Source: Natrinema versiforme (GTDB lineage Archaea; Halobacteriota; Halobacteria; Halobacteriales; Natrialbaceae). Taken from it: 64,000 nucleotides of DNA. The stretch spans positions 1,302,001-1,366,000 of the forward strand of contig NZ_CP040330.1 in the NCBI RefSeq assembly GCF_005576615.1, written 5' to 3'. Position 1 is the first letter of the stretch. Every line of letters starts with the position of its first letter. This document shows, one piece after another, positions 1,322 through 32,029 of the stretch. Under the pieces are notes generated by a model that had not been told where the DNA came from, ran no database searches, and worked only from the letters and a program-made list of their open reading frames with translations. Made by a program: the position numbers and the translations under genes.

Positions 1322-3778
1322 ATGCCTACTGACGGCGACTCGAGCCGACTCGCCGACGCGACGGCGACCTTTCTCGAAGACCGCGAGGACGGCGAGCGCG
1401 CGCTCGAGGCCGTCCTTACTGTCGACACCGAACACGACACCTGGACCTTCGACGATATCGATCTGGATTCGGGAACGTTCGGGGAACTCGTGTCGAGCGG
1501 CATCGTTGAGAAGGTCGACGGTGCGTATCGGGTTGCAGACCCCGAGGCCGTCGACGCAGTGATCGCAGGCGAGGAGGTCCAAACGGACTCGCGTTCAGTA
1601 CCTGCCGACCGCGATTTCGATCTCGAACGGTTCCGGACCATTGATCCTCGAGCGGCGATCGCGTTAGTCGGGGCGCTGATCGCCGTCGCCGGTGCGCGGA
1701 TGACGGCGTTTCGGTCGGTCTTTCAGCAGGGCTACGTCGTCTCGCCCGCGAACGATCCCTACTACTTCCGGTACTGGATGGAGGAGTTGCTTGGACGATC
1801 CTCGGGGCCCACGGACTTTGGTGTTCTTACGGATCCGTCAGGTGCTGTCTTCGGGACACGGCCGTTCGCCCACGCGACAAACTGGTTTCTCGCCGAACTA
1901 CTCGGCGGCGGACATGGCGCGGCCGAGACAGTCGCAGCGTGGCTGCCGATCGTCGCGTCCGTCGCGCTCGGGCTCGCGATTTACAAGCTCACCGTCCTGC
2001 TCACTCGAGACGTTCGAGTCGGGATCGCCTCCGTGCTCGCCTTCGCCGTGACGCCGATCAACGCGGTCTACACGGGGCTCGGGTTCATCGATCACCAACT
2101 TCACCAGTACTTCTGGCTCGGCGTCACGCTCCTGACGCTGACGTGGCTCGCCGTCGATCTGCAACGGCGACTCGAGCGCGGTAGTGACGACCAGGTGGCC
2201 GTTCGGGGCCACCTTCAGGACCCCGTGACGTGGGTCGTCGCCGCCGCGTTCGGGTTCTCGGTCGCGGCCGGGATCCACGCGTGGGGCGGCTCGCCGCTGC
2301 TGTTGGTCCCGCTCGCGGGCTACGTCGCGCTCCGCGTCGCGATGGACGCTCGAGCGGGCGTGTCGCCGACGCGTGCGAATCTGCCGCTACTCGTCGGGCT
2401 CGCCGTCGGGAGTGCGCTCTCGCTCGCCCTGCACCACCGCTGGGGCTGGCACGCGGAGTTCGTCGCGACCACGCCGGCGCTGGTCCTCAGCGGCGCGATC
2501 GCCGTGGTCGCGCTCGGCGAACTGTGGCGGCGGCTCGAGGGTCATCTCGGCGGGTTGCTCGCGATCGAGGGACTCGTCGCGGCCGGCGGCCTCCTCGCGT
2601 TTCGGCGACTCCAACCCGAGGACTGGGCGGAAGCGATGGCCCGCGTCGACGCCCTGTTCTTTCGCGAGGGCGCGACCGAGACAGCCTCGCTGTTTGCGAC
2701 GGAATACGCCGTCTTCTTCGGGCCGATGTACCAGCTCGGGATGGGCTTTTACCTCGCGCTCGTCGTGCTCGGCTGGGTCGCGTGGACCGTCGCCCGCCGG
2801 TACGAACCAGGTTGGTTGCTCGTCGGGACCTACACAGGGTATTTGCTCGTGCTGGCGGGGGTTCAGGTTCGCTTTGCTGGGCAGTTGGCGATTCCGCTGG
2901 CCGTACTGACCGGACTGGGGCTCGTCCAGTTGCTCGCGGTCGTTGAGTTGGCTAGGACGCCGGTTCCGTTCCGTGATTCAGATTCGGCGTCTTCGAGGAC
3001 CACTCGAGACCGTGACAGTGTCGCCACCGATGGCGGGCGGGCGCTCGAGCCCCCGATTTCGGTCCCCGATGGCCGAAAGGTCGGGTACGTCCTCGGCATC
3101 GGGCTGCTCGTGTTCGGACTGAGTCTGATCTACGTGCCCGGGTTGACGGCGGACGTGACCCACGACGAGGCACAGGTCGGGGCGGCCAGTGCGATCGACG
3201 ACCACGCCGAAGCGGCGAATCAGACCTATCCCGAGAACTTCGTGCTCAGCGAGTGGGGCGACAACCGGATGTACAACTATCTGGTGAACGGCGAATCGCA
3301 GGGGTACGGATACGCCCAGAGCAACTACGGGGAATTCCAGTCTGGGTCAGATCCGGATAGCTGGTACGACCAATTCGACGGCCGGGTCGGCTACGTCGTC
3401 GTGACCGATATCGACGGGGAGACACCGGATGAGAGCGCGCAAGCGCAGTTACTCGAGGAGCGGGGTACGGGCGGTGACGACGAAGACGGGCTCGCGCATT
3501 ATCAGGCGATTCTCGTCAGCGACGATGCCGCTGCGTTCGCCGTGGTTCCCGGCGCGACGCTCGAGATGAGTGGAGAGCCGGGCGCGAACGTGACCGTCGG
3601 GACCGACGTATCAGTGTCCGGTGAGTCGATAGCGTACGAACGAACCGCGTCTGTGGGTGACAACGGGCAGGCGACAGTGACGGTTCCGTACGCCGGCGAG
3701 TATACGGCTGGCGATCGAACGGTGACCGTTACCGAAGCGGACGTGCTGAACGGGAGTTCAGTGGGGCTCGAGGAGTGA
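1322..3778 (+). CDS. STT3-family oligosaccharyltransferase-like protein (AglB-like) with N-terminal winged-helix-like segment
   Basis: An 818-residue protein. Residues about 1-90 are soluble and acidic, and resemble a small winged-helix domain ending in EKVDGAYRVADPEAV. About 12 membrane segments follow (roughly 110-560), then an extracellular C-terminal domain. The first loop carries ND at 144-145 in PANDPYYFRYWME, the DxD-like metal site of STT3 enzymes. The catalytic WWDYG of AglB/STT3 is replaced by EWGDN at 644-648, in the segment LSEWGDNRMYNYLVNGES. I infer transfer of a lipid-linked glycan to an exported acceptor, but this is a divergent paralogue, not classical AglB. It lies 16 kb from the flippase and other glycan genes and close to uppP. 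The start is ATG at 1322. Confidence 0.8.
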   Translation: MPTDGDSSRLADATATFLEDREDGERALEAVLTVDTEHDTWTFDDIDLDSGTFGELVSSGIVEKVDGAYRVADPEAVDAVIAGEEVQTDSRSVPADRDFDLERFRTIDPRAAIALVGALIAVAGARMTAFRSVFQQGYVVSPANDPYYFRYWMEELLGRSSGPTDFGVLTDPSGAVFGTRPFAHATNWFLAELLGGGHGAAETVAAWLPIVASVALGLAIYKLTVLLTRDVRVGIASVLAFAVTPINAVYTGLGFIDHQLHQYFWLGVTLLTLTWLAVDLQRRLERGSDDQVAVRGHLQDPVTWVVAAAFGFSVAAGIHAWGGSPLLLVPLAGYVALRVAMDARAGVSPTRANLPLLVGLAVGSALSLALHHRWGWHAEFVATTPALVLSGAIAVVALGELWRRLEGHLGGLLAIEGLVAAGGLLAFRRLQPEDWAEAMARVDALFFREGATETASLFATEYAVFFGPMYQLGMGFYLALVVLGWVAWTVARRYEPGWLLVGTYTGYLLVLAGVQVRFAGQLAIPLAVLTGLGLVQLLAVVELARTPVPFRDSDSASSRTTRDRDSVATDGGRALEPPISVPDGRKVGYVLGIGLLVFGLSLIYVPGLTADVTHDEAQVGAASAIDDHAEAANQTYPENFVLSEWGDNRMYNYLVNGESQGYGYAQSNYGEFQSGSDPDSWYDQFDGRVGYVVVTDIDGETPDESAQAQLLEERGTGGDDEDGLAHYQAILVSDDAAAFAVVPGATLEMSGEPGANVTVGTDVSVSGESIAYERTASVGDNGQATVTVPYAGEYTAGDRTVTVTEADVLNGSSVGLEE

Positions 3779-4703: not shown

Positions 4704-5401
4704 CGCGGTGTTCAGATAAGGTTGAAGAAGTGAGGCGTAGCGTTTTCAAAGTGTTCTATGCCCGAAAACGCACGCCTCAGTTCTATTATCGGCCAGATTG
4801 ACTTGGGTTTTGTGGAGCGCGAGGCAACACCGCGGCTGTTGATGAAGCTCAGTATTCAGCTCCATCTTGCTGGACTCTCGCTTTCGAATACTGTTCGCGT
4901 TCTCGAGATATTAGGTGTTGACCGGGCCCGCTCGACTGTTCATAACTGGGTTCACAAGGCCGATCTACAGCCCAATTCCTGTCGAAGTCCGGATCACGTC
5001 GCGGTTGACGAGACAGTGATCCAGCTCGGTAATGAACAGTACTGGCTGTACGCAGCTGTCGATCCAGAGTCAAACGAATTGCTCCATACAAAGCTTGAAC
5101 CGACTAGAACTAAGGTTATCGCTAGTGCATTCTTCACGGAATTATGCGAGAAACACGACGTCGATGACGCTGTGTTTCTCGTCGATGGAGACAAGTCCCT
5201 GAACTATGCCTGTCAACGACATGGCCTCGATTTCAGATACGAACGGCATGGAAATCGGAACAGTGTCGAACGTGTATTTCGTGAGATAAAACGTCGAACC
5301 TCATCCTTCTCAAACTGTTTTAGCAATGCCTACGCAGAAACTGCTGATCAGTGGCTCAGATCGTTCGCCTTCGCATGGAATCAGTTAATCTGAACACGGC
5401 C
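4704..5401 (+). mobile_element. IS6-family insertion sequence, complete, 698 bp
   Basis: The ends are imperfect inverted repeats: the left end reads CGCGGTGTTCAGATAA and the inverse of the right end reads GGCCGTGTTCAGATTA, sharing GTGTTCAGAT. Both ends are bordered by the identical octamer GTGATCTC. The element holds one transposase gene in a size typical of haloarchaeal IS6 elements. The perfect duplication and intact transposase suggest a recent insertion, with no later deletion at either side. Confidence 0.85.
4758..5393 (+). CDS. IS6-family transposase
   Basis: A 211-residue DDE transposase. A helix-turn-helix occupies about residues 43-66 (SNTVRVLEILGVDRARSTVHNW). The catalytic residues appear as Asp84 in VAVDET, Asp143 in FLVDGD and Glu171 in SVERVFREIKRR, with family-typical spacing. 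The length equals that of other haloarchaeal IS6 transposases and no stop or frameshift is seen, so the enzyme is probably active. It fills nearly the whole insertion sequence. The ATG at 4758 follows the left inverted repeat by about 40 bases. Confidence 0.92.
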   Translation: MPENARLSSIIGQIDLGFVEREATPRLLMKLSIQLHLAGLSLSNTVRVLEILGVDRARSTVHNWVHKADLQPNSCRSPDHVAVDETVIQLGNEQYWLYAAVDPESNELLHTKLEPTRTKVIASAFFTELCEKHDVDDAVFLVDGDKSLNYACQRHGLDFRYERHGNRNSVERVFREIKRRTSSFSNCFSNAYAETADQWLRSFAFAWNQLI

Positions 5402-9617: not shown

Positions 9618-10550
9618 CTAGTCGCGGTAGTACGGAATCGTCCGCTCGAGGCCCTCCTCGAAGTCGACATCAGGTTCGTATCCGAGCAAGTCTTTAGCCT
9701 TCGAAATATCGGCGTTCGAGTGTCGGACATCGCCTGGACGTGGCGAGTCGTATTCCGGTTCGATGTCCGTCCCGAGGAGTTCGTTGAGGGTGTCCACGAG
9801 TTCGTTGATCGTCACGCGCCCGCCACAGGCCACGTTAAACGCCTCGCCGGTCACGTCGCCCTCCGCAGCGAGCACGTTCGCCTGAACCGTGTTGTCGATG
9901 TAGGTGAAGTCGCGGGACTGCTCGCCGTCCCCGTAGATGACCGGCTGCTCCCCGCGAACCAGGAGATTGATAAACTTCGGGATAACGGCGGCGTATTCCC
10001 CGTTGGGGTCCTGTCGCGGGCCGAAGATATTGAAGTATCGGAGCGCGACAGTGTCGATGTCGTAGAACTCGCTACACTGGAGAGTCAATTCTTCGGTGAA
10101 CTGTTTCGAGAGGGCGTACGGCGACTCGGGGCGCGTCGGCATCGTCTCGACCTTCGGAAGTTCGTCGCTCGAGCCGTACAGCGACGACGAGGACGCGACT
10201 ACGACAGTATCGATGTCGGCTTTGCGGGCGGCATCGAGAACGGTCGCGGTTCCGGTACAGTTGCCGTCAGTCGTGGTTACGGGATCGTCGACGCTCCGTG
10301 GAACCGACGGCACGGCAGCCTGATGGAAGACGTAGTCGACACCTTCGCTGATCGAGGCCATCAGGTCGGCGTCGCGGATATCGCCCTCGTGAAACTCGAA
10401 CGCTTCGTCTGTCGAGAGCGACTCGAGGTTTTGCTTTCTCCCGGTCTCGAAGTTGTCGACACCGCGGACGGTGTATCCACGCTCGAGCAAAGTATCCGCG
10501 AGGTTCGATCCGATAAATCCGGCAACGCCGGTCACTAAAGCAGTCGGCAT
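9618..10550 (-). CDS. UDP-N-acetylglucosamine 4-epimerase-like (WbpP type)
   Basis: A 310-residue extended short-chain dehydrogenase with the Rossmann motif GVAGFIG (8-14), ASSSSLYG (119-126) and the catalytic Tyr145-xxx-Lys149 of SPYALSK. NIFGPRQDPNGEYAAVIP and IYGDGEQSRDFTYIDN are typical of the GalE/WbpP group. It lies 50 bases downstream of a nucleotide-sugar dehydrogenase on the same strand. A WbpP-WbpO-like pair would turn UDP-GlcNAc into UDP-GalNAc and then UDP-GalNAcA. Substrate choice between glucose and GlcNAc forms cannot be settled from sequence. The start is ATG 10550, immediately before ALVTG. Confidence 0.82.
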   Translation of the reverse strand: MPTALVTGVAGFIGSNLADTLLERGYTVRGVDNFETGRKQNLESLSTDEAFEFHEGDIRDADLMASISEGVDYVFHQAAVPSVPRSVDDPVTTTDGNCTGTATVLDAARKADIDTVVVASSSSLYGSSDELPKVETMPTRPESPYALSKQFTEELTLQCSEFYDIDTVALRYFNIFGPRQDPNGEYAAVIPKFINLLVRGEQPVIYGDGEQSRDFTYIDNTVQANVLAAEGDVTGEAFNVACGGRVTINELVDTLNELLGTDIEPEYDSPRPGDVRHSNADISKAKDLLGYEPDVDFEEGLERTIPYYRD

Positions 10551-10600: not shown

Positions 10601-11872
10601 TTACAGCCGGACCACGTTCGAACTATCGAGCCCGTTCGTCGCGTTCCGCGTATCGAACACGAGCGGTGCGCCGTCGACGATCGCCTCGATATCCAGTACC
10701 GAGTGGTCCGTGACGATGACCGCACAGTCGACTGTCTCGAGCAGTTCAGTCGTCAACGGAACCGACTCGTATTCGATTCCCCCGACGTCGAGGGTCGGGA
10801 CGTGGGGATCGTGATACTCGACAACCGCGTTCCACTCCTCGAGTTGCGCGATGATGTCGATGCTTGGCGACTCCCGCGTATCCGAGACGTCCGGTTTGTA
10901 CGCACCGCCGATGACGAGTACCGTCGCGTTCGACATTGCGACCCCGCGATCGTTGAGTCGTTCCACGACCCGCTGGACGACGTGCGCCGGCATCTCCCGG
11001 TTGACCGTATCCGCCAGATCGATGAACCGCGTGTCGACGCCCTGCTGGTTCGCCTTCCAGGAGAGATAGAACGGATCGATTGGAATGCAGTGGCCGCCGA
11101 GTCCCGGTCCCGGATAAAACGGCATGAATCCGAACGGCTTCGTCTCTGCGGCCTCGATCGCATTCCAGATATCCACGTCGAGTTCGTGCGCGATCTGTGC
11201 GAGCTCGTTAATGAGGCCAATGTTGACCGCGCGGAACGTGTTCTCGAGGAGTTTCACGAGTTCGGCTTCCGTCGCTGATTCGACGCGCACTACCTCGTCG
11301 AAAACCGGCTCATAGAGCGCTTCGGCTCGATCACCGCAGGTTGGCGTAACACCACCGAGCACTTTCGGGATGTCCGTCGGCCCGTACTCTTCGTTTCCGG
11401 GATCGATCCGTTCAGGTGAGAAAGCAAGATAAATATCTTCTCCGATGGTTGCGCCGTTTTCGGCGAATACGTCACCGATCGCCTCCTTCGTTGCCCCGGG
11501 ATAGACTGTACTCTCTAGGATAACCGTACATCCGTTCGGAACGATGGGTGCGAGTCGTTCGGCTGCGTCGATGACGAAGGACAAATCCGGCGTGTCCGTC
11601 TTTCGAAGCGGTGTCGGGACACAGATCGAGATTCCATCGACGTCGAAGAGCGAATCGTAGTCAGTCGTGGGGACGAGACCGTTCTTGACGGCATCGGCTA
11701 CTCTCGCGTCCGACACGTCGTTCACCGTCGATTCACCGCTGCGGAGTCGTTCGATCGTGTCCGCATCGACGTCAACACCGACTACATCGTAACCCGCGTC
11801 GTGCATCGCCAGCGCCAGAGGGAGTCCGACGTATCCCAAGCCGACGACACCGACCCGCGTTTGCTCAGCCAT
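10601..11872 (-). CDS. Nucleotide-sugar dehydrogenase, UDP-HexNAc dehydrogenase type (WbpO/TviB-like)
   Basis: A 423-residue member of the UDP-glucose/GDP-mannose dehydrogenase family. It has GLGYVG at 11-16, the central dimerisation segment (ELVKLLENTFRAVNIGLINE), the catalytic Cys262 in GLGGHCIPIDP, and a C-terminal Rossmann-like domain (GGAYKPDVSDTRES). GGHCIPIDPFYL and VPTPLRK are closer to UDP-N-acetylhexosamine dehydrogenases than to UDP-glucose dehydrogenase. The enzyme oxidises C6 twice with NAD to give a uronic acid. MAEQTRVGVVG at 11872 is taken as the start; ATG 11881 and GTG 11890 are in frame just upstream. It is probably cotranscribed with the WbpP-like gene. Confidence 0.87.
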   Translation of the reverse strand: MAEQTRVGVVGLGYVGLPLALAMHDAGYDVVGVDVDADTIERLRSGESTVNDVSDARVADAVKNGLVPTTDYDSLFDVDGISICVPTPLRKTDTPDLSFVIDAAERLAPIVPNGCTVILESTVYPGATKEAIGDVFAENGATIGEDIYLAFSPERIDPGNEEYGPTDIPKVLGGVTPTCGDRAEALYEPVFDEVVRVESATEAELVKLLENTFRAVNIGLINELAQIAHELDVDIWNAIEAAETKPFGFMPFYPGPGLGGHCIPIDPFYLSWKANQQGVDTRFIDLADTVNREMPAHVVQRVVERLNDRGVAMSNATVLVIGGAYKPDVSDTRESPSIDIIAQLEEWNAVVEYHDPHVPTLDVGGIEYESVPLTTELLETVDCAVIVTDHSVLDIEAIVDGAPLVFDTRNATNGLDSSNVVRL

Positions 11873-12126
11873 ATACGCCATCGGATACACCTCAGGGATT
11901 TCACTCCATCGTTTACGGAGTTTCGTATAAGGGTATCAGCACTTCCAATATCTGCTTTCCAACTAGTCAAACCGAAATCACACGGCACGACACCCTCGTT
12001 CGCCTCAAAATTCTGAAAATCGACCTTTCCCAGCAGTCAACTACGAGATCACGACATCGCCTCACACCAATTGCGGAAAACGAGTCTTAAGTTCTCGAGG
12101 TGTCTTGCCACGAGTGTGATCTCTCG

Positions 12127-13245
12127 ATGACTGACTCTCGGCCTCGCGTCTTCCATCTCATCACGCGCTTGCTCAAGGGCGGTGCAGAGGCCAAGACGAT
12201 GGCGACAGTGCTCGGCCTCGAGGACTACGAGTTCACCGTCGGTTACGGTGCTGCTGTCGATCAGGATCAGGTCAACCGACTCGAAAGTGCCGGTGTCGAA
12301 ACGAGGCAGTTTCCGCTAATTCGCCACTACAATCCAGTGACGACGCTGCCTGCCGTCGCTTCGCTCGCGGTGTACCTGCGACGGAACGACTTCGATATCG
12401 TCCACACGCACAGCACTGAGGCCGGCATTATCGGACGCTTCGCGGCTGCTTTGGCTGGCGTTCCACATGTCGTTCACACCGTGCACGGAGTGCCGTTCGC
12501 CGACGATCGGAGCGCTGCGCTCAACCAGTTCGTCCTCGCCTGCGAGCGCGCGGCTGCAAAGTCCACCGATCGCATCGTCACCAACGCCGACGTGATCGCC
12601 GACGAGTATCTCGAGCGCGGGATCGGTACTGCAGACCAGTACACTACGATCTACAGCAGCGTTGACCTCGAGGCGTTTCGAGATGCCGAGCCTGCAATGG
12701 ACCTTCCCGGGACTCGCCCGCGGATCGTCATGATCGGACGCCTCGCCGAGGGGAAAGGATTCGATCTCATGCTCGAGGCTGTGGCGTCGCTCGAGACCGA
12801 TGTCTCCGTCTACTTCGTGGGGCAGGGGCCGTTGTTCAACGATCTCGAGGAGGAAATCGCCGATCGAGGACTCTCCGATCGCGTGTCTCTGCTGGGCTAC
12901 CGCGACGACGTTCCGAACGTGCTAGCTGCGAGTGACGTGCTCGTCCTGCCGTCGTATCGAGAAGGGACACCGCGCGTGATTACGGAAGCGATGGCCAGTG
13001 GGTTACCGGTGGTTGCAACCGATATTGCAGGAATTCCGGAACAGGTCGCCGAGGGTGAGTCCGGTTATCTGATTCCGACAGGGGATGCCGATGCTCTCGC
13101 TGATCGGCTGACCACGCTGTTAGCTGATCATGAGGAGATGGAACGGATGGGTGCTCGGGGACTCGAGCGGGCTGAGGCGTTTTCTGTTGATGCTATGCTC
13201 GAAGCGATCGACCACCTGTACGATGAGCTTATTACAGAATCATGA
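12127..13245 (+). CDS. GT4-family glycosyltransferase
   Basis: A 372-residue GT-B enzyme. The N-terminal acceptor domain begins FHLITRLLKGGAEAKT (the GG loop) and includes HTHSTEAGIIGR and HTVHGVPF. The C-terminal nucleotide-sugar domain has IGRLAEGKG and the E-x7-E signature in YREGTPRVITEAMASGLPVV. This is a retaining GT4 enzyme acting at the cytoplasmic face on a lipid-linked glycan. A CTTAAG element lies about 36-41 bases before the ATG. The gene is divergent from the UDP-GalNAcA genes and is followed after 110 bases by an alkaline-phosphatase-superfamily gene and a NodB deacetylase, probably one transcription unit. Confidence 0.88.
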   Translation: MTDSRPRVFHLITRLLKGGAEAKTMATVLGLEDYEFTVGYGAAVDQDQVNRLESAGVETRQFPLIRHYNPVTTLPAVASLAVYLRRNDFDIVHTHSTEAGIIGRFAAALAGVPHVVHTVHGVPFADDRSAALNQFVLACERAAAKSTDRIVTNADVIADEYLERGIGTADQYTTIYSSVDLEAFRDAEPAMDLPGTRPRIVMIGRLAEGKGFDLMLEAVASLETDVSVYFVGQGPLFNDLEEEIADRGLSDRVSLLGYRDDVPNVLAASDVLVLPSYREGTPRVITEAMASGLPVVATDIAGIPEQVAEGESGYLIPTGDADALADRLTTLLADHEEMERMGARGLERAEAFSVDAMLEAIDHLYDELITES

Positions 13246-13355
13246 GACAGTACAGGGTATCTGGAATAAAAATACCGTTCACGCCGGGAACGTGCGGAAA
13301 GACTATGATGAGAAAGACACAGAGAATATAACCATTGAGAGATGATCCCCAGCAA

Positions 13356-14909
13356 ATGACGACGGTTGTCCTCGGATTAGACGGGGGATGCTTCGAGCTG
13401 ATCCAACCGTGGATCGACGATGGTTCTCTTCCTACGTTTGCTACATTGACGCGAGACGGCGTTGCTGAAGATATGCAGAGTTGTCTCCCTCCAGTCACCT
13501 GCCCGAACTGGCAGTGTTACGCTACCGGCACCAATCCAGGAAAGTTGGGTGTGTTTTGGTGGGAATCTATCGATAGAGACGATTGCAAGATCGAGAACAG
13601 GAGCGCTGCCGAAGACTTCGACGGGACCCATTACTGGCAACTTCTCGATGAGACCGCTGCAGTCATCAATCTGCCAACGTCGTATCCACCATCCGAGACG
13701 GATGGCATACATATTGCGGGCGGGCCTGGAGCAGACCAAACCGGCTATACGTATCCTGAATCGCTGGAATCGAAACTCAAGGTGCAGTACGACTACTCTG
13801 TCCATCCAGAAAAAATGGCTCTTCTATCCGGCGACGATCCGGATAACGCCTGCGTTGAGGAGATCTACGATTTGATTGACTCACGATTCGACGTGCTTGA
13901 GGACGAACTCGAGAGCGGAGAATACGAGATTATTCACATGACTGTGTTCTACCTAAACGTTCTCCAGCACTTCTACTGGGACATGGATGTCGTAAAACGA
14001 GCGTGGGAGAAGATCGACGAACGAGTCGGCCACATTCTGTCGAGCGATGAGCTAGACAACTTCTTCGTGATGTCCGATCACGGCTCCAACGAAATCAAAA
14101 CGACGTTTCGAATTAACACGTGGCTCGAACAGAACGGCTATCTTTACACCGAGTCGAGCATAAGCGACTATCTCCATCGGATCGGAATTACGCAGGAACA
14201 TGTCCGCCCAGTATTAGCAATGTTAGGAGTGGAGTGGTGGGCCCGCCGGTTGCTCCCGAAACGGATCCAGATGGCGCTTCCTGATTCGGAAGGATCAGTC
14301 GATAAGAGCGGCAAAGAAGAGGTTATCGACTGGGACCGTTCAAAGGCGGTTGCGAGTGGACAGGGTCCAGTGTACGTCTTATCTGATGATCTCGATGAGA
14401 GGGAGCGAATCATGGACGAACTGATTTCAGATCTCGACGGTCTCACTGACAGAGCAGGGAGCCCGGTATTCGACCGAGTTCTACCGGGTGAGGACGTTTA
14501 CGATGGATCACATGTAGAAAAGGGGCCTGACATAATTCTCGATCAAGCTCCCGGCGTCCATATCGAGGGGAAAATCGGGAGCGATTCCGTATTCGGCTCG
14601 CCGAGCAAGTGGCACGGCGAAAATAAGGACACAGGGATGTTCATCGGATACGGTCCCGATATCGACGAAGAGACCGAAATCCGAGATATGCACATTCTCG
14701 ATATCGCGCCGACACTCCTCCACCTTCATCGAACTGACGTTCCTGAATACATGGACGGGCAGGTCCGACTCGAACTATTCTCCTCCGAGTCGGAACCGAG
14801 GAACCGAGCGGTATCACGGAATGACTCAGAGGTTGCCGACGATTCGACGAGGGAATCCGTCGACCGTGATGTGACCAGCCGACTCGAAGATCTGGGCTAC
14901 ATGGAATGA
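13356..14909 (+). CDS. Alkaline-phosphatase-superfamily phosphodiesterase (type I phosphodiesterase/nucleotide pyrophosphatase type)
   Basis: A 517-residue soluble protein with no signal peptide. Metal and catalytic positions are all visible: Asp9 in LGLDGG, the nucleophile Thr48 in PPVTCPNW, the DH pair in FVMSDHGSNEI, and the late His in WHGENKDTGM followed by IGYGPDI. This matches AlkP-superfamily phosphodiesterases, which hydrolyse or transfer phospho-groups. It overlaps the deacetylase gene downstream by four bases (ATGA), so the two are translationally coupled, and it follows a GT4 gene. Haloarchaeal glycan clusters often carry such genes; the substrate is unknown. ATG 13356 is chosen because the family starts right before the metal Asp. 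Confidence 0.85.
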   Translation: MTTVVLGLDGGCFELIQPWIDDGSLPTFATLTRDGVAEDMQSCLPPVTCPNWQCYATGTNPGKLGVFWWESIDRDDCKIENRSAAEDFDGTHYWQLLDETAAVINLPTSYPPSETDGIHIAGGPGADQTGYTYPESLESKLKVQYDYSVHPEKMALLSGDDPDNACVEEIYDLIDSRFDVLEDELESGEYEIIHMTVFYLNVLQHFYWDMDVVKRAWEKIDERVGHILSSDELDNFFVMSDHGSNEIKTTFRINTWLEQNGYLYTESSISDYLHRIGITQEHVRPVLAMLGVEWWARRLLPKRIQMALPDSEGSVDKSGKEEVIDWDRSKAVASGQGPVYVLSDDLDERERIMDELISDLDGLTDRAGSPVFDRVLPGEDVYDGSHVEKGPDIILDQAPGVHIEGKIGSDSVFGSPSKWHGENKDTGMFIGYGPDIDEETEIRDMHILDIAPTLLHLHRTDVPEYMDGQVRLELFSSESEPRNRAVSRNDSEVADDSTRESVDRDVTSRLEDLGYME

Positions 14910-15868
14910 CCGACACGACCGGCGTATTTACCCTCTCGCTCGACACCGAACTCGCCTGGGGAACGTTCGACGTCGGACGGCTCGAAGCACATAAGACAGC
15001 GTACCGGGCGACGCCGGACATCATCGAACGGCTCTGTGAGCTGTTCGACGAGTACCAGATTCCGGCGACGTGGGCGCTCGTCTCGCACCTCCTCGTGGAC
15101 TGTCGGCACGGACGGGGACACGCAGACCGGACCCTGCCGGATTTCCCGTGGATCGACGACTGGTTCGCCGAAATGCCGTGTTCGAGCGGACTCGACGAGG
15201 GGTTGTGGTACGCTCCGTGGATCGTCGATCGGCTACAGGCCTGCCAAACGGACCAAGAAATCGGCCTCCACGGAGCGACACATATGCCTCTCGGAGCGAA
15301 CGGGTGTTCGAGACGAAACGCCGAGGAAGAACTCGAGATCGCCATCAAAACACTCCGAGAACATGGCGAGGAGCCAGAAACGTTCGTCTACCCGCGAAAC
15401 GATATCGGCCACGTCGACGTACTCCGTGATAACGGGATCCGAACCTATCGAGAAGTAGACGCACGCTGGTACGAGCGATCGTTAGTTCCTGATACGGCGA
15501 AACCGCCACTCAGGTTCCTCGACGAGGCGACGCAACGAACACCACCAATCGTAGAGCCAACGCTGAACGACGGTCTCGTAGAACTACCCGGATCACAGAT
15601 ATTCCGCCCGAGCCACGGCGGCTGGCAATACGCGCCTACCGGAAGCAGCGTCGCTCGAGCGAAAAAGGGGCTACAGCGCGCCGCTCAGACGGGTGGCGTG
15701 TTCCATCTGTGGTTTCACCCTTTCAATCTCGGACACGCCTCGTCAAAGGACATGGAACGGTTCGAACGTGTGTTAGCCATGGCTAGCGAACTTGCAGAGA
15801 ACGGTGAAATCGAGCGCCTCCCAATGCGGGAAGTGGGAATCCGAACTCGGCAGGGACGATGGGGATGA
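14906..15868 (+). CDS. Polysaccharide deacetylase (NodB-like, carbohydrate esterase 4)
   Basis: A 320-residue protein whose first NodB motif is LSLDTELAWG with Asp13. The metal-binding HGATH follows in EIGLHGATHMPLG, and VYPRNDIGHV carries the typical Arg/Asn region. FHLWFHPFNLG near the C-terminus supplies the last conserved His. It would remove N-acetyl groups from HexNAc in a glycan or glycolipid, plausibly the product of the UDP-GalNAc route. No signal peptide, so it acts in the cytoplasm. It overlaps the AlkP-superfamily gene by four bases. Confidence 0.85.
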   Translation: MTDTTGVFTLSLDTELAWGTFDVGRLEAHKTAYRATPDIIERLCELFDEYQIPATWALVSHLLVDCRHGRGHADRTLPDFPWIDDWFAEMPCSSGLDEGLWYAPWIVDRLQACQTDQEIGLHGATHMPLGANGCSRRNAEEELEIAIKTLREHGEEPETFVYPRNDIGHVDVLRDNGIRTYREVDARWYERSLVPDTAKPPLRFLDEATQRTPPIVEPTLNDGLVELPGSQIFRPSHGGWQYAPTGSSVARAKKGLQRAAQTGGVFHLWFHPFNLGHASSKDMERFERVLAMASELAENGEIERLPMREVGIRTRQGRWG

Positions 15869-15916
15869 ACTCATTTTCAACTGCCGAGTGATACAGTATC
15901 AAAATAAGCGGCCATA

Positions 15917-16582
15917 TTATAAACCACATCTAATATACATCGTTTGAAATCGGAAGAAGAGCGTGGATGCAATCCATTTTATACTCCAGTCGCTAACATT
16001 CCGAGTAAATAATTTACGTGATTCGATCGACTCGTGCTCGATATGAAAGCCTTGGTTTAGCAACATATCACGAATCTCCGACGGAGAAAAATGGTGGGGA
16101 TGAGGGCGATCTATATACTGTATTCTATTTCTGATGTATTCCGGTAGTGAATACGTATTTATTTTGAATAGAAACGTCCCTCCAGGCTTTAACACTCTAG
16201 CAATTTCCGCTAAAACCGTGGAGGGCTGAACAGTATGGTCAAGCACATTTATATTTGCAGCGACATCAAAGAAATCGTCATCGAAGGGAAGAGACTCACC
16301 AGCACCTTGAATGACCGGTTCTCCAGAGAGGCGGGGATTTGAAACTTTGCCTAAGATCGGATCGAGGCCGATTATTGTACCCGCATCCGGCACGTGTTCT
16401 TCTATAGAATAAACGAGACCTCCAGTACCACATCCGACTTCTAATACAGATTTCTGTCCGAACAGATTATCCGGAGAGAGATCAAATCTATCAGCCAGCC
16501 AATCTAGTTGTCCGTATGATATTTCTTGGTGATAATCCGTCTCCACTTCTTGTGCTTCGTTCCACCGACTGATCGAGTCCAT
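15917..16582 (-). CDS. Class I SAM-dependent methyltransferase
   Basis: A 221-residue protein with the SAM-binding motif VLEVGCGTGGL (about 46-56), an acidic end of the second strand (TIIGLDPI), and the motif-III-like INVLDHTVQPSTVLAEIARV followed by LKPGGTFLFKIN. This is the UbiE/COQ5-like (Methyltransf_11) fold, and in this setting it probably methylates a sugar. Codon use shifts to AT-rich here. A TATA-like TCATATAGG at 16607-16615 lies about 28 bases before the start, consistent with a leaderless message. Confidence 0.87.
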   Translation of the reverse strand: MDSISRWNEAQEVETDYHQEISYGQLDWLADRFDLSPDNLFGQKSVLEVGCGTGGLVYSIEEHVPDAGTIIGLDPILGKVSNPRLSGEPVIQGAGESLPFDDDFFDVAANINVLDHTVQPSTVLAEIARVLKPGGTFLFKINTYSLPEYIRNRIQYIDRPHPHHFSPSEIRDMLLNQGFHIEHESIESRKLFTRNVSDWSIKWIASTLFFRFQTMYIRCGL

Positions 16583-16698
16583 TGGTCCGATTCACGGCTA
16601 TCGCTCATATAGGTATTATCGTTCGCCTTTATCAAATTTATCTAGATTGTTGATAGATTAGATTGAATTTACTCAGTAGCACGTTTCAATACACAATA

Positions 16699-18303
16699 TC
16701 AGATATATCCAAGATCTTCTAGACGCTGTTGAACAGCGTCATCGTCTTCTCGTCCAACCCCGGTATCACTGTCAACGAGGTCCGAAATGGGGTGCTTCGA
16801 CGGTATGACTCCGTCTACATCCGTCTCGATTAGTAATTCTGTTCGAACTTCGCCGTCCATTTCCTTCGGAATCGGCGCTCCATGGAGAGAAAGTAAAGTC
16901 GGTGCCACATCGTAGATCTGCCCCTCGATTTCCGTTCCAGAATCGATCGATGGTCCGGAGGCGATGATGATTCCCTCACGATTGTGTCCACCGCTACGAG
17001 CTTTCGATGGTGGGCCATCAGAGAAGATTTGCCCGCTTGCCTTTGGACGAGGATCGACGGCACATTCAAAATCGTCGATTTCGATCATGAGATCAGGAGC
17101 AAGATCTGTTTTTGGACCATGGTAGACACCGTCCGGCTCGTAAATATCGATTTCACTTGGCCCGTCTTCGAGTGTCACGAGCGATTCTAATCCATCGATA
17201 ATTTCCTGTTTGTCTTCCGGATCATCGGAAAGGAGATAAATCATCCCGCTAGTGAGATTTTGCCTCGGGGCGAAGGCAATGCTGCTCTCGAAATCGATGT
17301 CTTCGCCAGGCGTTTTCCGGACTGACTTACCGACCGATTTTGCCAAGTCATTTAATTGGGGAACCAGACTAACGACTGATTCACCGATTCGACGAAGATA
17401 CGGGAAATACGTGGTCCGGACTTGATCGGTAAGCGACTGTTCTGTGCGATTCAGGTATCCCTCTTGCTCGAGCCACTCGTTCGAATGGAACGTTTTGTTA
17501 ATAGGGCCGAATCCATGGTCCGAGACGATGACGAGGTCGGCGTCTTCAGCACGAGCGATGTCTGCTACCGTGCCAACTGCCTCATCGACTCGCATCCAGA
17601 TTCGTTCCAACATTTCTTCGTGACCAGCTGTCGAATCGTACAGAACGTGGTCTTCGTCAGCGTAGCGCCAGAAGTAGTGCTGTGCCCAATCAGTAGCGCT
17701 TATAATTCCGAAGAAGTGGTCGGGATCTTTTTCGGAGATTAAGTACTCGATCGCGGTTTCACGCTTCCCGATGATATCTAACAGGTCGGATTCCAACTTT
17801 TCGGGATAACCCTGGTATTTCGGATCAGCATACGGAACTTTTACTCGATAGCCGTCAGTCACATCATCGAGTTCCGAACCGAGTGATTCAGGATACGTAA
17901 TTGTTTCATCTGCTTCCGATCCCAGGCCACTAACCATGAATCCGTTTGTTTCGTACGGCGGATACAGCATTGGGTAATTGAAGATACCTACTGACTGATC
18001 GTGAGCTGATAAAATGTCCCAGAAGCTCTGCCCATGGAATTTGTCCGACCCCAGTGTTTCGAACTCGAACGAGTCTGGACTTTCACGATTGAGGAAGTAG
18101 AAAACGCCGGTTTTTCCCGGATTCTGTCCTGTCGCCATAGAGAGCCATGCAGGGGCAGTGATAGGCGGGAACGTGCTCTCTAAGTCTCCGGAACTTCCGG
18201 ATGAAATAACTTGCTTTATATTGGGAAGAGCCCCATCACGAATTAATGGTTGCAGAACATTCCAGGTAGCTCCATCTAGACCTATAACTATTGTATCAGT
18301 CAT
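16699..18303 (-). CDS. Alkaline-phosphatase-superfamily phosphodiesterase, second copy
   Basis: A 534-residue relative of the protein at 13356-14909, with Asp10 in IGLDGA, nucleophile Thr49 in PPITAPAW, DH in IVSDHGFGPINKTFHSNEWL, and the late His in GGHNREGIIIASGPSI. Both copies end in the same LEDLGY tail, so they are true paralogues. It is cytoplasmic, has no signal peptide, and overlaps the upstream GT4 gene by eight bases, repeating the GT4-AlkP pairing at 12.1-14.9 kb. The substrate is unknown. Base composition lies between the GC-rich and AT-rich blocks. Confidence 0.85.
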   Translation of the reverse strand: MTDTIVIGLDGATWNVLQPLIRDGALPNIKQVISSGSSGDLESTFPPITAPAWLSMATGQNPGKTGVFYFLNRESPDSFEFETLGSDKFHGQSFWDILSAHDQSVGIFNYPMLYPPYETNGFMVSGLGSEADETITYPESLGSELDDVTDGYRVKVPYADPKYQGYPEKLESDLLDIIGKRETAIEYLISEKDPDHFFGIISATDWAQHYFWRYADEDHVLYDSTAGHEEMLERIWMRVDEAVGTVADIARAEDADLVIVSDHGFGPINKTFHSNEWLEQEGYLNRTEQSLTDQVRTTYFPYLRRIGESVVSLVPQLNDLAKSVGKSVRKTPGEDIDFESSIAFAPRQNLTSGMIYLLSDDPEDKQEIIDGLESLVTLEDGPSEIDIYEPDGVYHGPKTDLAPDLMIEIDDFECAVDPRPKASGQIFSDGPPSKARSGGHNREGIIIASGPSIDSGTEIEGQIYDVAPTLLSLHGAPIPKEMDGEVRTELLIETDVDGVIPSKHPISDLVDSDTGVGREDDDAVQQRLEDLGYI

Positions 18304-19456
18304 GGTATTCTCCTATCTTTTTGACTATGTTTTCCGCTAACGTATCCCATGTTCGGTTTTCAATACTATATTCTCGACCTCTGTTCCCCATCTGGTTCCG
18401 CTCTTCGATAGGCAGATCAATTAATACCTCGATCGCCGATCGAATGCTATCTGGCGAAGAATCATTTATCAATTCACCTAGGTCATGTGTTCCGATGAAT
18501 TCCAGTTCAGTGGATTTTGTTGCAATAACTGGAACTCCACAGCTTAAATACTCAAATACTTTCATAGGGCTACCCCAATGATCTGGATCAATAACACCAT
18601 ATGCGAGATCACTCGCCGAAATATATATATTCACTTGATTATGATCAATGAATCCTGGGAAATACGAATCTATATTCAAATCATGAGCGAGTGACTTAGT
18701 TTTATCTAGCATAGGGCCATCTCCTACCAATAATAATTTAACATCTTCATCTAAGCGGTCAATTGCTTCTAGTAGTGGTTCGAGACAGTGATACTGTTTG
18801 AAGCTGCCAACAAATGTTATAACAAAATCCTCATCGTCAATAGGTTCGTGAATTCTTTCTCTGGCGGCAGATCGTGGTACCGGACTGAACTGATTTGTAT
18901 CTACTCCATGGTGGAATATCTCTATTGAGTCATCTGCGATATTTCCTCGAGATTGTATCCACTCTTTTGCTTCTTCATATGCCGCGAAAGTATACGTGCT
19001 GTTCTTCGCATTTATTGTTGCTATTATCCTTGCTAAGAGAGATGCACCAATAAACGGTGACATCCTTGAGATTGTTTTTTCCATCAATCCCTCAACTAAT
19101 AGTATTTGGGGAATATCATTCGAATATGAATAAAATGGTGGAGTTAGTAAACTGACTTTCAATGAACAAACGATCCCATCAATGTTGTTGTTCTTTTGTA
19201 TTTTTCTTAATTTTCGTAGTATTTCTGGTTGGGCACTAATATGCCACGCTGGATCCCGTCGCCTCTTTTCAGTTATGTATTCTGGAGTTACGTTGTCTGA
19301 TGATAGAACTTCCGGGGGATCGTTAGACGGTGTTGGGCAAATAATGGTCAACTGAACACCATCAATTCTAGATAGTGCGTTAGCGATCTGACGAGAATAT
19401 AAGTTTTGTCCAGATTCTCCAGAAATGTCAACTAACATGACGATAGTAATATGCAT
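18296..19456 (-). CDS. GT4-family glycosyltransferase
   Basis: A 386-residue GT-B glycosyltransferase. Typical features are the N-terminal GESGQNLYSRQIANAL, TFVGSFKQYHCLEPLLEAI at the start of the donor domain, LLVGDGPML, and a donor-site region WGSPMKVFEYLSCGVPVIAT carrying the conserved Glu. Its stop overlaps the start of the AlkP-superfamily gene by eight bases, so the two are made together. The gene is AT-rich, unlike the 12.1 kb GT4 gene. Confidence 0.85.
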   Translation of the reverse strand: MHITIVMLVDISGESGQNLYSRQIANALSRIDGVQLTIICPTPSNDPPEVLSSDNVTPEYITEKRRRDPAWHISAQPEILRKLRKIQKNNNIDGIVCSLKVSLLTPPFYSYSNDIPQILLVEGLMEKTISRMSPFIGASLLARIIATINAKNSTYTFAAYEEAKEWIQSRGNIADDSIEIFHHGVDTNQFSPVPRSAARERIHEPIDDEDFVITFVGSFKQYHCLEPLLEAIDRLDEDVKLLLVGDGPMLDKTKSLAHDLNIDSYFPGFIDHNQVNIYISASDLAYGVIDPDHWGSPMKVFEYLSCGVPVIATKSTELEFIGTHDLGELINDSSPDSIRSAIEVLIDLPIEERNQMGNRGREYSIENRTWDTLAENIVKKIGEYHD

Positions 19457-19554: not shown

Positions 19555-20721
19555 TTATAATTGTATAATCTCGTGCAGTCTTTTCTTTTGCTTAGTTCTA
19601 GTATATTCACTGGCAGCTTCCTTTGCCCCTTCTTTTAAATTTTGACGTATCTTATTATCTTTTATAAACTTGGAAACAATACGGGATAGATCATTATCTG
19701 ACTTGAATGTATTGATACCAGGCATTAGCCGATCGGGAACTTCATACCATTCTGGAAGTAATAATGGTGTCGCATTGCGGATTGCATCTGAAATAGCACC
19801 AGACCCCTTGCTTTGACCATAGTGTTCAACAAACCCATCTGATTTTCTAGTTCTTCGTAGAGGGCTAATAAGAAGGTTGCTCTTTTCAATATAGTGTGAG
19901 AATTCTTTCTCAGGTATCCAATTATGGAAACTAACTACCTTCATCCTCGGACCTTCAAATTTTTTAGCTCTTCTAATGATACTTTCGCCATAGTCACCAA
20001 CTGGTTGACCTAATAATACGAATTCAATATCATTCATACCAATATTGGATAGACTTTCTAGCGCTCTAAGAATAGTCTCATATTCTCGTCGGCTTTCGTC
20101 TATCAAACCTGGTACGGTTATTGTAATCGGGCTTTCTTGATCATGGGCTTGGCTAAGCTCGGAACTTTCTTTAATATTATTTTTATGTATGACTGATGTG
20201 AACGTCTCGACAGTAGTTTCATGGAAGTGATTTCTAGCATATACCATTATTGGCTCAAATTCCACTAACAATAGATCTATTTTTTTTAGGAATTTTTGTT
20301 TTATGGGGTATTTTAGATAATTATATATTTTTGGAGTGAGTCCGATTTCTCTACCAATCCATCCATTTAAATCGTATGCGAAAAGAATGAATTGGCAATT
20401 TGGGTTAAAGTTATCGTATTGCAGATAGTCGAATATAGTTCCATAGAACGGGAATGATATTAGTGAATCAAGATTAACCATCTCTTGGGACTGTATGCGC
20501 GATAGGAAGGAATGATCCGTTTCATGGTCTTTTTTTGTAACCCAATTAATATCATTTTGGAGAGTAGAAGTCTTGCCGATTATTCGTTTGCAAATCCCTT
20601 CTGTAGTGAAAACTGTAACGTTAGCTATTTCAGCAGTAATTTTACAGAGATCAAGAAGATAATTTTCATGAGATGATAGATTAAGTAATCCGATGTTTGG
20701 TCGCATAGAATTTTGCTTCAT
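19555..20721 (-). CDS. Divergent GT-B glycosyltransferase
   Basis: A 388-residue, very AT-rich gene. The N-terminal half is unusual (NIGLLNLSSHENYLLDLCKI). The C-terminal half has GT4-like elements: VTIPGL-like TITVPGLIDESRREYETIL, VLLGQPVGDYGES, VVSFHNWIPEKEFSHYIEKS and the donor-site segment GSGAISDAIRNATPLLLPEW. I assign it as a glycosyltransferase of GT1/GT4 fold with moderate certainty. It stands upstream of the GT4/AlkP pair on the same strand after a 98-base gap. The start is ATG 20721; ATG 20706 (MRPNIGLL) is a good alternative. Confidence 0.7.
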   Translation of the reverse strand: MKQNSMRPNIGLLNLSSHENYLLDLCKITAEIANVTVFTTEGICKRIIGKTSTLQNDINWVTKKDHETDHSFLSRIQSQEMVNLDSLISFPFYGTIFDYLQYDNFNPNCQFILFAYDLNGWIGREIGLTPKIYNYLKYPIKQKFLKKIDLLLVEFEPIMVYARNHFHETTVETFTSVIHKNNIKESSELSQAHDQESPITITVPGLIDESRREYETILRALESLSNIGMNDIEFVLLGQPVGDYGESIIRRAKKFEGPRMKVVSFHNWIPEKEFSHYIEKSNLLISPLRRTRKSDGFVEHYGQSKGSGAISDAIRNATPLLLPEWYEVPDRLMPGINTFKSDNDLSRIVSKFIKDNKIRQNLKEGAKEAASEYTRTKQKKRLHEIIQL

Positions 20722-26103: not shown

Positions 26104-27114
26104 TTAATTCTTGTACCCCAGGGCTTCTAATTGTTCTTCTAACTCAGAAGTATCTATCGCTGAAGTCGCTTCAGTACGGCTTTCTACTGTTATATTGCGT
26201 CGCTTCGAACCCCGTTCAACGATCAACCACGGTACTTTGCACAGTTCGACTGTTTTGGGATTGCGGTAGTGTTCGTACAGTTTCCCTAAAAGCAGATAGG
26301 GTCTTTCCCCAAACATTTCACCATGGTCGGAACTAATTACTACTTTACCAGCGATATTTTTGAGGAGAGTATCGACATCTTCCAAAACAATTTCGAGCGT
26401 CTCTCGATATGCCTCGCGTGCTGCTTCTTCGGAAATTTCCCCAGTTGCGACTAACTCCATTATACGTTTTCCTTGGGATCGTCTTTCATTGGGTGCAGCA
26501 CCCCCAATTTGGGCCTTCTCTCGCAACTTTTCTGCAGTAGGTCCCAAGGGAGGATCATGCGGTTGCATATAATGAACGATAATTCGTTTGTTAGGATACT
26601 TTTCGTGAGCCTCAATCGCGGAAGCTGTCACATCACCTGGTCTTACACACTGCATCTCCGAATCCCAATTAGAGATCGGTTCTGTAATAACATCATGAAA
26701 AATATCATTATCGACTAATCTCACATGAGGATTTGCAGTTACGTATACCGTGTCGTGTATATCTTTTCCGACGAAGTTTCTTTCTATAAATCGTCTACTA
26801 TCCACTCCCTGAGAGATTTTGTGAGTTAAGTCGCCAGAAATAGAATTTATATCACTAAAATCATCAAATCGACAGGCATCGAGCAAAATAAGCGTGTCCC
26901 AATCTTCATCCATTATATCCGTTCCCGACCCGTGTTTAACGGTAAACAGAGCGTTGTATGGATATTTCAATAACCAGAACGGGAACGGTGTCGAGTTGTT
27001 AGTCACCGTTGGTTTTGGATATAATGTATTGGATGCGCGAGCAATACTTCTCTTCAATAGCGTACTCAGGCCTTCTGTTCGATAGGCTTTGACCACTTTC
27101 TTTAATACACTCAT
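26104..27114 (-). CDS. Sulfatase-like alkaline-phosphatase-superfamily protein
   Basis: A 336-residue protein with TLILLDACRFDDF (metal Asp), HYMQPHDPPLG, and VVISSDHGEMFGE (metal DH) typical of sulfatase/phosphoglycerol-transferase-like members of the superfamily. No membrane helix and no signal peptide. It ends LEEQLEALGYKN, a tail resembling the LEDLGY ends of the other two AlkP-superfamily proteins in this cluster. MSVLKKVVKAYR at 27114 is taken as the start; the frame is open for 16 more codons without family support. Substrate unknown. Confidence 0.75.
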   Translation of the reverse strand: MSVLKKVVKAYRTEGLSTLLKRSIARASNTLYPKPTVTNNSTPFPFWLLKYPYNALFTVKHGSGTDIMDEDWDTLILLDACRFDDFSDINSISGDLTHKISQGVDSRRFIERNFVGKDIHDTVYVTANPHVRLVDNDIFHDVITEPISNWDSEMQCVRPGDVTASAIEAHEKYPNKRIIVHYMQPHDPPLGPTAEKLREKAQIGGAAPNERRSQGKRIMELVATGEISEEAAREAYRETLEIVLEDVDTLLKNIAGKVVISSDHGEMFGERPYLLLGKLYEHYRNPKTVELCKVPWLIVERGSKRRNITVESRTEATSAIDTSELEEQLEALGYKN

Positions 27115-27198
27115 GGGTATCTGACAATATTGTGATTTGTACTCGATCGTTCTAAATAGCAATTACGTGGTGTGTATCTGCTGGGCACATAAACATAT

Positions 27199-30778: not shown

Positions 30779-32029
30779 TCAGCTGTCCGACTCAGAGCCG
30801 GACTTGTCGATATTCTCGGCCTCGGCCTCCGAGTCGGAGTACGGGATGAACCCCCGATTCGGCGTCACAGTTCCCGACTTCAGGGCCAGCTGACCGTGGC
30901 CCGTCCGTTGCGAGGACTGTGGCCCGCAACGGAGGAATTTCCAGCCGATATTCTTCGCCGCGTTGTAATCCGCGTGCGCTTCCATTCCACATTCCTCACA
31001 GGCGAAGTGATCTCGAGACACACGATTCTCTCGACTCTCGTGACCGCACTCGCAGCAGCGCTGACTCGTGTACGCGGGATCGACAAAGACGACTTCGATA
31101 CCCGCTTCCTCGGCCCGGTACTCAACGAACTCGACGAGCGTTCGGTGCGCCCACTGGTGGAACGTCCGGTCAGCCGAGATCCGATTCTGGATGTGACGAA
31201 GGTTTTCGAAGACAATATGTGAACAGTCGTACTCCTCTGTCTCTTCGAGAATTGCATTCGCGACTTCGTGGAGGGACTGTTGGTGACTGCGTGCTTCGCG
31301 ACCACTAATGGCGGCAAGGGTGCGGTGTGCCGATTGGGTCCCGGTTTTCTGTAGTCCACTGCGAACGGCCTCGAACTGTCGTTGTCGGTGTGCGAACTCA
31401 CGACCCGATTCGAAGCGCGCGGTCGACGTCACAGCGAGGTTCTCGATCCCGAGATCGACCCCGAGAACGCGTTTTGGCTCTCGCTCCTCGACCGACGGCC
31501 GCGGCCGTCGAAAACCGAGATGGAGAAAGTACGAATCGTTACGCGTGACGAGCGTCGATGCGCCGATTTCCCATGCATCGGCCTCGATGAACTGCCACTG
31601 ATACCCCTCATCGTCGCTGGGAAGCACCAACTCACACCGAACGCGTTGCTCGACCGTGGTCAGAGATACTGTCTGATCGTCGAATAGCGAGAGGGTCTTC
31701 GGCTCGTACCTGATAGTGGGCGACGTGAACTCCGGTTTCGATACCGATTGGTCGTGTTCTTCCAGAGTTGCAACGGCGGAGAGCGCATCCGCAGCGTGGT
31801 GGATCGCGAGGGTGGCATGCATACTCCCCAAGCCAGTATCCTCACGGATGCGGTCGTACGCGAGCGATTGGAGTCGACGCTTCCCGCATATGTCGTTCCG
31901 CCAGCCGATATCAGCTGCAAGTTGACAGCCCTCGCGCCATGCTCGACTGGTCTTCTCAAGCAGCCTCGCGTCTGTTGGTGAGACGCGGAGCCGCGTGATT
32001 GCCGTTCGAGTAAGGTAATTACTCGCCAT
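30779..32029 (-). CDS. tnpB: TnpB-type RNA-guided nuclease (IS1341/IS605 OrfB)
   Basis: A 416-residue protein with an N-terminal nucleic-acid-binding domain, a split RuvC domain and a zinc ribbon. The catalytic residues are Asp192 in GVDLGIENLAV, Glu275 in IVFENLRHIQNRI and Asp354 in HADYNAAKNIG. The zinc ribbon uses Cys325, Cys328, Cys344 and Cys347. All key residues are present, so nuclease activity is likely. No TnpA gene is adjacent, so this is a solitary IS1341-type copy. By family rule its guide (omega) RNA should overlap the 3' end of the gene and run to the element border around 30.73-30.78 kb. The exact borders cannot be set. Confidence 0.9.
   Translation of the reverse strand: MASNYLTRTAITRLRVSPTDARLLEKTSRAWREGCQLAADIGWRNDICGKRRLQSLAYDRIREDTGLGSMHATLAIHHAADALSAVATLEEHDQSVSKPEFTSPTIRYEPKTLSLFDDQTVSLTTVEQRVRCELVLPSDDEGYQWQFIEADAWEIGASTLVTRNDSYFLHLGFRRPRPSVEEREPKRVLGVDLGIENLAVTSTARFESGREFAHRQRQFEAVRSGLQKTGTQSAHRTLAAISGREARSHQQSLHEVANAILEETEEYDCSHIVFENLRHIQNRISADRTFHQWAHRTLVEFVEYRAEEAGIEVVFVDPAYTSQRCCECGHESRENRVSRDHFACEECGMEAHADYNAAKNIGWKFLRCGPQSSQRTGHGQLALKSGTVTPNRGFIPYSDSEAEAENIDKSGSESDS

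Follow-up and report, generated by a model that had tools for sequence, protein, structure and literature searches.

We analyzed a surface-glycan cluster within a 64,000-nucleotide window of the Natrinema versiforme genome (contig NZ_CP040330.1). The original prediction for this stretch had placed two modules in the cluster, each pairing a family 4 glycosyltransferase (GT4) with an alkaline phosphatase (AlkP)-superfamily phosphodiesterase, here called PDE1 and PDE2. Both modules were recovered as open frames with Pfam matches at the expected places. Module 1 (12127–15868, forward strand) starts with GT4-1 (12127–13245; PF00534, E = 2.6e-42, with PF13692 and PF13439), followed by PDE1 (13356–14909; PF01663, E = 5.8e-28) and a NodB-like polysaccharide deacetylase (14906–15868; PF01522, E = 5.5e-6) that overlaps PDE1 by 4 bp. 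The first ATG of PDE1 is at 13356, and the longest open reading frame opens at a TTG at 13335. The deacetylase match scores 26.8 bits against a cut-off of 23.1, and the CE4/NodB metal-site motifs SLDTE, HGATH, and LWFHPF are present. Module 2 (16699–19456) lies on the reverse strand, where GT4-2 (18296–19456; PF00534, E = 1.2e-20) overlaps PDE2 (16699–18303; PF01663, E = 4.3e-37) by exactly 8 bp. With about 37% identity, PDE1 and PDE2 are paralogs; they score 98.9 and 128.9 bits, respectively, against the PF01663 profile (curated cut-off, 23). Direct reading of their N-termini agrees with the prediction that neither has a signal peptide.

The cluster is anchored by an AglB-like oligosaccharyltransferase (1322–3778, forward strand), which is 40% identical to an AglB-profile match in a locus that also contains a PDE2 ortholog (L195). 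Divergent from module 1, and completing what we call the PDE1 cassette, are a nucleotide-sugar epimerase-like member of the SDR family (9618–10550) and a UDP-sugar dehydrogenase-like protein (10601–11890), both on the reverse strand. Downstream of PDE2 is an S-adenosylmethionine (SAM) methyltransferase (15917–16582, reverse strand; PF08241, E = 6.1e-18). Directly upstream of GT4-2, positions 19555–20721 encode a glycosyltransferase-like protein with a sub-threshold GT4 match only (PF00534, E = 0.006).

Metal-site residues of PDE1 and PDE2

AlphaFold2 models of PDE1 (mean predicted local distance difference test score [pLDDT], 91) and PDE2 (mean pLDDT, 79; predicted template modeling score [pTM], 0.82) predict an ENPP-like fold with good confidence. 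For both proteins, the best fold matches in the PDB were ENPP1/ENPP3 and the Xac NPP, with ENPP6 also ranking high, at about 12–15% identity in the fold alignments. The fold, the Thr nucleophile, and the second metal site are shared with the ENPP/NPP family (PF01663; ENPP1, ENPP3, Xac NPP, and phosphonoacetate hydrolase). PDE1 and PDE2 differ from that family in being cytoplasmic and in carrying a C-terminal LGY tail, which follows a low-confidence linker in both models.

Active sites were compared at columns D54, T90, D210, H214, D257, H258, and H363 (Xac NPP numbering), which correspond to the metal ligands and nucleophile of NPP enzymes. The D-x-x-x-H and DH columns match phosphonoacetate hydrolase in an HMMER alignment. 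PDE2 reads DTDHDHH at these positions, which is the complete canonical set. PDE1 reads DTNHDHN (D9, T48, N201, H205, D241, H242, and N423): Asn201 takes the place of the D-x-x-x-H Asp and Asn423 that of the late His, leaving only His205 of that metal site. PDE1 is therefore not a canonical two-metal NPP, although profile and fold identify it as a relative. Both enzymes had been described as keeping Asp, Thr, DH, and the late His, a statement that is correct for PDE2 but not for PDE1. PDE1 has lost a metal site on which canonical AlkP phosphodiesterases rely.

This substitution is not peculiar to PDE1. PDE homologs were drawn from 100 same-family genomes and, by scanning, from a collection of bacterial and archaeal genomes; they were aligned, and 125 sequences were placed in a tree. 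The scan was built on an alignment of the clade containing PDE1; a broad 17-sequence alignment had no conserved stretch. One of the two scan patterns has [MN] at D210 and so enriches for proteins with the modified site, whereas N at H363 was not selected. Across the tree, 44 sequences have D/H at the D210/H363 pair, 70 have N/N (including two truncated ones), and 10 have M/N; the one remaining sequence is a diverged outlier, and mixed states were absent. Family searches made without the [MN] pattern gave the same split between D/H and N-or-M/N. All modified-site sequences group together, forming a one-metal clade marked by the joint loss of two first-site ligands (D210 to N or M, H363 to N). 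The clade extends to Thermoplasmatota (L124), Candidatus Methanoxibalbensis (L123), and Anoxybacillus (L182). Of all our results, this coupled change, shared by a large clade with ties to glycan genes, is the most surprising. Neither the one-metal clade nor the PF01663 lineage of glycan loci was found described in the literature searched, which also held nothing specific on COG3379 or on AlkP–deacetylase clusters.

With two of three metal-site-1 ligands missing throughout the clade, these proteins might be pseudoenzymes, devoid of catalysis and retained as subunits with a binding or scaffolding role in the glycosylation complex. However, virtually every member retains the Thr nucleophile and all metal-site-2 ligands, and the Asn at the position of the late His (Asn423 in PDE1) is nearly invariant. 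Given this near-invariance, the pattern argues for a site that was re-tuned rather than one that decayed, and we regard the pseudoenzyme explanation as quite improbable. Judged by its residues, PDE1 would be shifted toward the one-metal AlkP enzymes, LtaS included. One-metal AlkP enzymes also include sulfatases. LtaS binds one Mn near its Thr nucleophile, and the metal ligands of EptA, MCR, and LtaS are Glu, Thr, Asp, and His (PMC7576196). PDE1 keeps an analogous D, T, D, H set, which would place a catalytic metal beside the nucleophile, and a full second site is missing in LtaS as well. By this likeness, the PDEs could transfer a phospho-alcohol to the glycan. Yet LtaS, EptA, and MCR are membrane proteins that act outside the cytoplasm, whereas PDE1 is soluble-looking, belongs to another family, and, like PDE2, has neither anchor nor signal. 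In addition, no phosphorylated haloarchaeal N-glycan was found in the literature covered, and we consider an LtaS/EptA-like transferase unlikely.

Linkage to glycosyltransferase and deacetylase genes

Gene neighborhoods were collected as 20-kb loci around PDEs, with genes called by composition, labeled with purpose-built profiles, and representatives checked by Pfam. Linkage was counted for the 82 PDEs left after relatives of more than 80% identity were dropped, and expectations were taken from 500 within-locus label shuffles; the loci were selected around PDEs, and their sampling is phylogenetically uneven. A co-directional GT4 was directly upstream of 14 of the 82 PDEs (shuffle mean, 4.6; standard deviation, 1.9; maximum, 9), compared with 2 of 294 other non-glycosyltransferase, non-NodB genes in the same loci. 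A NodB-like gene was adjacent to 29 PDEs (shuffle mean, 11; maximum, 19) and within 4 kb of 49, while 51 had a GT4, GT2, or DUF354 gene within that distance. By profile comparison, the NodB-like assignment is strong for one group (x277, 99.9%) and weaker for two others (c13, 95%; x263, 82%). The GT4–PDE linkage is thus real yet a minority arrangement, and NodB-like genes are the commonest partner overall. The predicted pairing extends beyond this genome at a frequency above chance, but it is not specific to GT4.

The LEDLGY tail (14883–14900 in PDE1) had been proposed as a mark of the two modules, and this we rejected. The C-terminal pattern L-x-x-[LMF]-G-Y was present in 130 of 144 PDE homologs and 64 of 71 sulfatase-like AlkP proteins, as against 2 of 1,143 other genes, and is therefore generic to the AlkP proteins of the collected loci. 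It is absent from the homologs in L123, L124, and L182. AlkP subfamilies that otherwise align poorly have this one short tail in common. It may be a structural element or a docking peptide, and it offers a handle for finding such enzymes.

The PDE1 cassette, in which the SDR and UDP-sugar dehydrogenase genes diverge from GT4–PDE–NodB, is collinear in Halobacterium sp. CBA1126 (L109), Halolamina pelagica (L111), and Halobaculum gomorrense (L115). Identity per gene is 66–81% (78–80% for the SDR protein and 77–81% for the dehydrogenase), and GT4-1 orthologs of 71–75% identity lie directly upstream of the PDE1 orthologs in all three; GT4-1 and PDE1 together span 71–79%. By comparison, full-length PDE1 matches in the 100 same-family genomes reached at most 44% identity, a contrast that suggests horizontal acquisition of the cassette. 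Among eight PDE1 orthologs (55–79% identity), NodB (50–66%) is directly downstream in six; a GT4-1 ortholog is present in six of the loci and directly upstream in three. Co-inheritance of GT4-1 and PDE1 holds roughly. The gene order AglB, GT2, GT4, PDE, NodB-like recurs in L069, L070, L119, L120, L122, and L180 (Halorubrum, Halapricum, Halorientalis, and others), with PDEs of the same clade as PDE1. AglB is beside PDEs in L069, L119, L120, L122, and L180, and the window's cluster is likewise AglB-anchored.

Module 2 behaves differently. Across 391 genomes of the class, nine PDE2 orthologs were found (47–71% identity), six of them preceded immediately by a GT4 on the same strand. Of those six GT4s, one shares 46% identity with GT4-2, and the other five show hardly any resemblance to it; only two relatives of GT4-2 (46% and 31% identical) occur among the GT4s beside PDE2 orthologs. 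Co-phylogeny of GT4-2 and PDE2, a check suggested along with the original prediction, is thus unsupported, as the GT4 lineage swaps between orthologs. The steadier partner of PDE2 is a sulfatase-like AlkP gene (about 488 amino acids) directly downstream in seven of the nine, usually with overlap; in the window, this slot is occupied by the methyltransferase. Loci with two GT4–AlkP modules are also present in Halorientalis regularis (L117) and in three same-family genomes (L079–L081). In L202 and L203, a PDE2 ortholog lies against a PDE1-like gene (35–36% identity), accompanied by GT4 and NodB relatives (50–52%).

Glycan decoration as a candidate function

The AglB cluster of Halobacterium salinarum encodes two AlkP-superfamily proteins, VNG1056C (Agl30) and VNG1057C (Agl31), that were reported in 2025 to be glycan sulfotransferases: their deletion removes glycan sulfates and their expression in Hfx. 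volcanii adds sulfates, whereas VNG1063H left sulfation unchanged (PMC11980604). Glycan decoration by AlkP proteins of AglB clusters is therefore already described, and the earlier suggestion of an undescribed system was too strong. Agl30 and Agl31 resemble PDE1 and PDE2 in superfamily, in cytosolic or membrane-associated character, in AglB-cluster setting, and in their L-x-x-L-G-Y tail; translation of the published primers gave the C-termini HLEDLGYL and LEELGYT (Agl30/Agl31) and KELGYIE (VNG1063H). Agl30 and Agl31 differ in that Agl31 is reported as an arylsulfatase-family protein and Agl30 as unassigned, neither being put in PF01663 (PMC11980604), a comparison made by description and primer-encoded tails. 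The primers also encode a VHYFQPH stretch in VNG1063H. A short protein in the window (26104–27162, reverse strand), with a VHYMQPH motif and the tail LEALGYKN, looks like the VNG1063H type. It had been listed as a third, sulfatase-like member; it is AlkP-like, but the matches are weak (PF00884, E = 0.008; PglZ, E = 0.018).

We tentatively favor, with somewhat less than even confidence, a reading in which PDE1 and PDE2 are cytoplasmic ENPP-like AlkP members of an AglB-type surface-glycan pathway that decorate the glycan with an anionic group. The shared tail, the AglB-cluster setting, and the cytosolic character make this the best reading. The neighboring GT4 would add a sugar to a dolichol-phosphate-linked glycan at the cytoplasmic face, the NodB-like enzyme would probably deacylate an amino sugar, and the AlkP enzyme would then place an anionic group on the glycan through its Thr nucleophile. 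The decorated molecule is probably the lipid-linked glycan, with substrate and donor putative. For PDE1, the group would more likely be moved by a one-metal mechanism, as its whole clade has lost half of the usual bimetal site. PDE2, with its two-metal site intact, might act as a phosphodiesterase/pyrophosphatase, a phosphotransferase, or a sulfotransferase. We place sulfate at least on a par with phosphate, and it would be the favored group, since the only functionally tested AlkP proteins of a haloarchaeal AglB cluster (Agl30 and Agl31) are sulfotransferases. Gene content, linkage statistics, residue changes, and predicted fold are observations, from which we infer action on the glycan, its direction (adding, not removing), and the group. 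The original prediction, that these enzymes add or remove a phospho-group, stands insofar as cytoplasmic AlkP enzymes are genetically tied to glycan assembly here and elsewhere; the phospho-group is only one option, given that the tested AlkP proteins transfer sulfate (PMC11980604). Overall, the observation was partly confirmed and its interpretation partly supported.

Several points weigh against glycan decoration. PDE1 and PDE2 may belong to a different AlkP subfamily from Agl30 and Agl31. The window's whole genome lacks a PF01747 ATP sulfurylase and has only a partial P-loop match to the adenosine 5′-phosphosulfate (APS) kinase PF01583 and a weak one to PF01507, leaving the sulfate donor of any glycan sulfation not evident. 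APS-kinase matches are also only weak in Halobacterium genomes, so this missing evidence for a supply of 3′-phosphoadenosine 5′-phosphosulfate (PAPS) is not decisive. The same data would also fit a hydrolase that takes a group off or disposes of a by-product. For example, a housekeeping pyrophosphatase could hydrolyze nucleotide or nucleotide-sugar by-products (uridine diphosphate [UDP], UDP-sugar, or 3′-phosphoadenosine 5′-phosphate [PAP]-like) and so drive the paired transferase reaction, as extracellular ENPP-type enzymes do. Such an enzyme would be in keeping with the nearest solved folds (ENPP1/ENPP3, a UDP-GlcNAc complex among them, and a bacterial NPP), the full two-metal site of PDE2, and the overlapping order of GT4 then PDE. 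It accords poorly with the PDE1 clade, which lacks two of the three ligands at one metal site, and several paralogs per locus (four to six AlkP genes in L078–L082) would be needless for a generic by-product hydrolase. We judge the role plausible for PDE2 but, for the PDEs as a whole, of low probability. Hydrolytic sulfatases are unlikely in these loci because none of the 72 sulfatase-like neighbors has the C/S-x-P-x-R (CxPxR) motif needed for formylglycine (fGly) sulfatases, and a sulfatase reading of those neighbors was rejected; the PDEs have Thr.

A more specific form of glycan decoration would make the PDE1 cassette an archaeal counterpart, assembled from unrelated parts, of the heparan sulfate N-deacetylase/N-sulfotransferase NDST. 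GT4-1 would load the lipid carrier with an N-acetyl amino sugar, the NodB-like enzyme would bare the amine, and the one-metal AlkP enzyme would sulfate (or phosphorylate) it before export. In both cases a deacetylase is paired with a sulfotransferase, a candidate one in the PDE1 cassette. The NDST sulfotransferase is not known to be AlkP-type. The NDST1 paper, checked for a polysaccharide-deacetylase/CE4 statement, contains none, and the parallel is by analogy only. We regard this proposal as quite improbable; if it were true, the one-metal AlkP enzyme would represent a previously unrecognized class. Clustering of NodB-like and glycosyltransferase genes in archaeal glycosylation loci is known from UPF0104–polysaccharide deacetylase–glycosyltransferase neighborhoods, although that paper makes no mention of AlkP-superfamily genes (PMC5898192). 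Haloarchaeal glycan loci can contain up to six AlkP-superfamily genes resembling phosphodiesterases or sulfatases. Should these encode glycan decorators, many archaeal surface-charge modifications could be assigned, and a class of one-metal AlkP transferases could be put to the test.

Additional PDE loci and the low-GC island

Other arrangements of AlkP genes were observed among the collected loci. L078–L082 are AglB–flippase loci in which AlkP-superfamily genes, both PDE-type and sulfatase-like, number four to six or more per locus. In a conserved glycan locus of many same-family genomes (L083, 9193–10884, and L095–L107), a canonical two-metal PDE and a NodB-like gene are divergently oriented, with Gfo/Idh, DUF362, and SDR genes coming next; the window's own genome has a copy of this PDE/NodB/Gfo-Idh locus at about 1.44 Mb (G000:C2). 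One-metal PDEs with Met at D210 (L072, L074, L076, L077, and L178) lie in operons with Gfo/Idh, UDP-sugar dehydrogenase, the unannotated c13, and DUF354, in part also with a DegT aminotransferase and GT2, and these operons resemble a diacetamido-uronate pathway. In L139, L127, and many loci among L126–L179 (Haloarcula, Halorientalis, and relatives), a one-metal PDE is beside a 224-amino acid GT2, a NodB-like gene, and membrane proteins of apparently UPF0104-like and GT-C-like type, reminiscent of a polyprenyl-phosphate amino-sugar (Arn-like) route.

Within the window, the glycan island has a G+C content of 37–59% from 8 to 32 kb, compared with about 65% in the flanks. Transposase-like genes at 4758–5393 and 30779–32029 flank this low-GC island, consistent with gene exchange.

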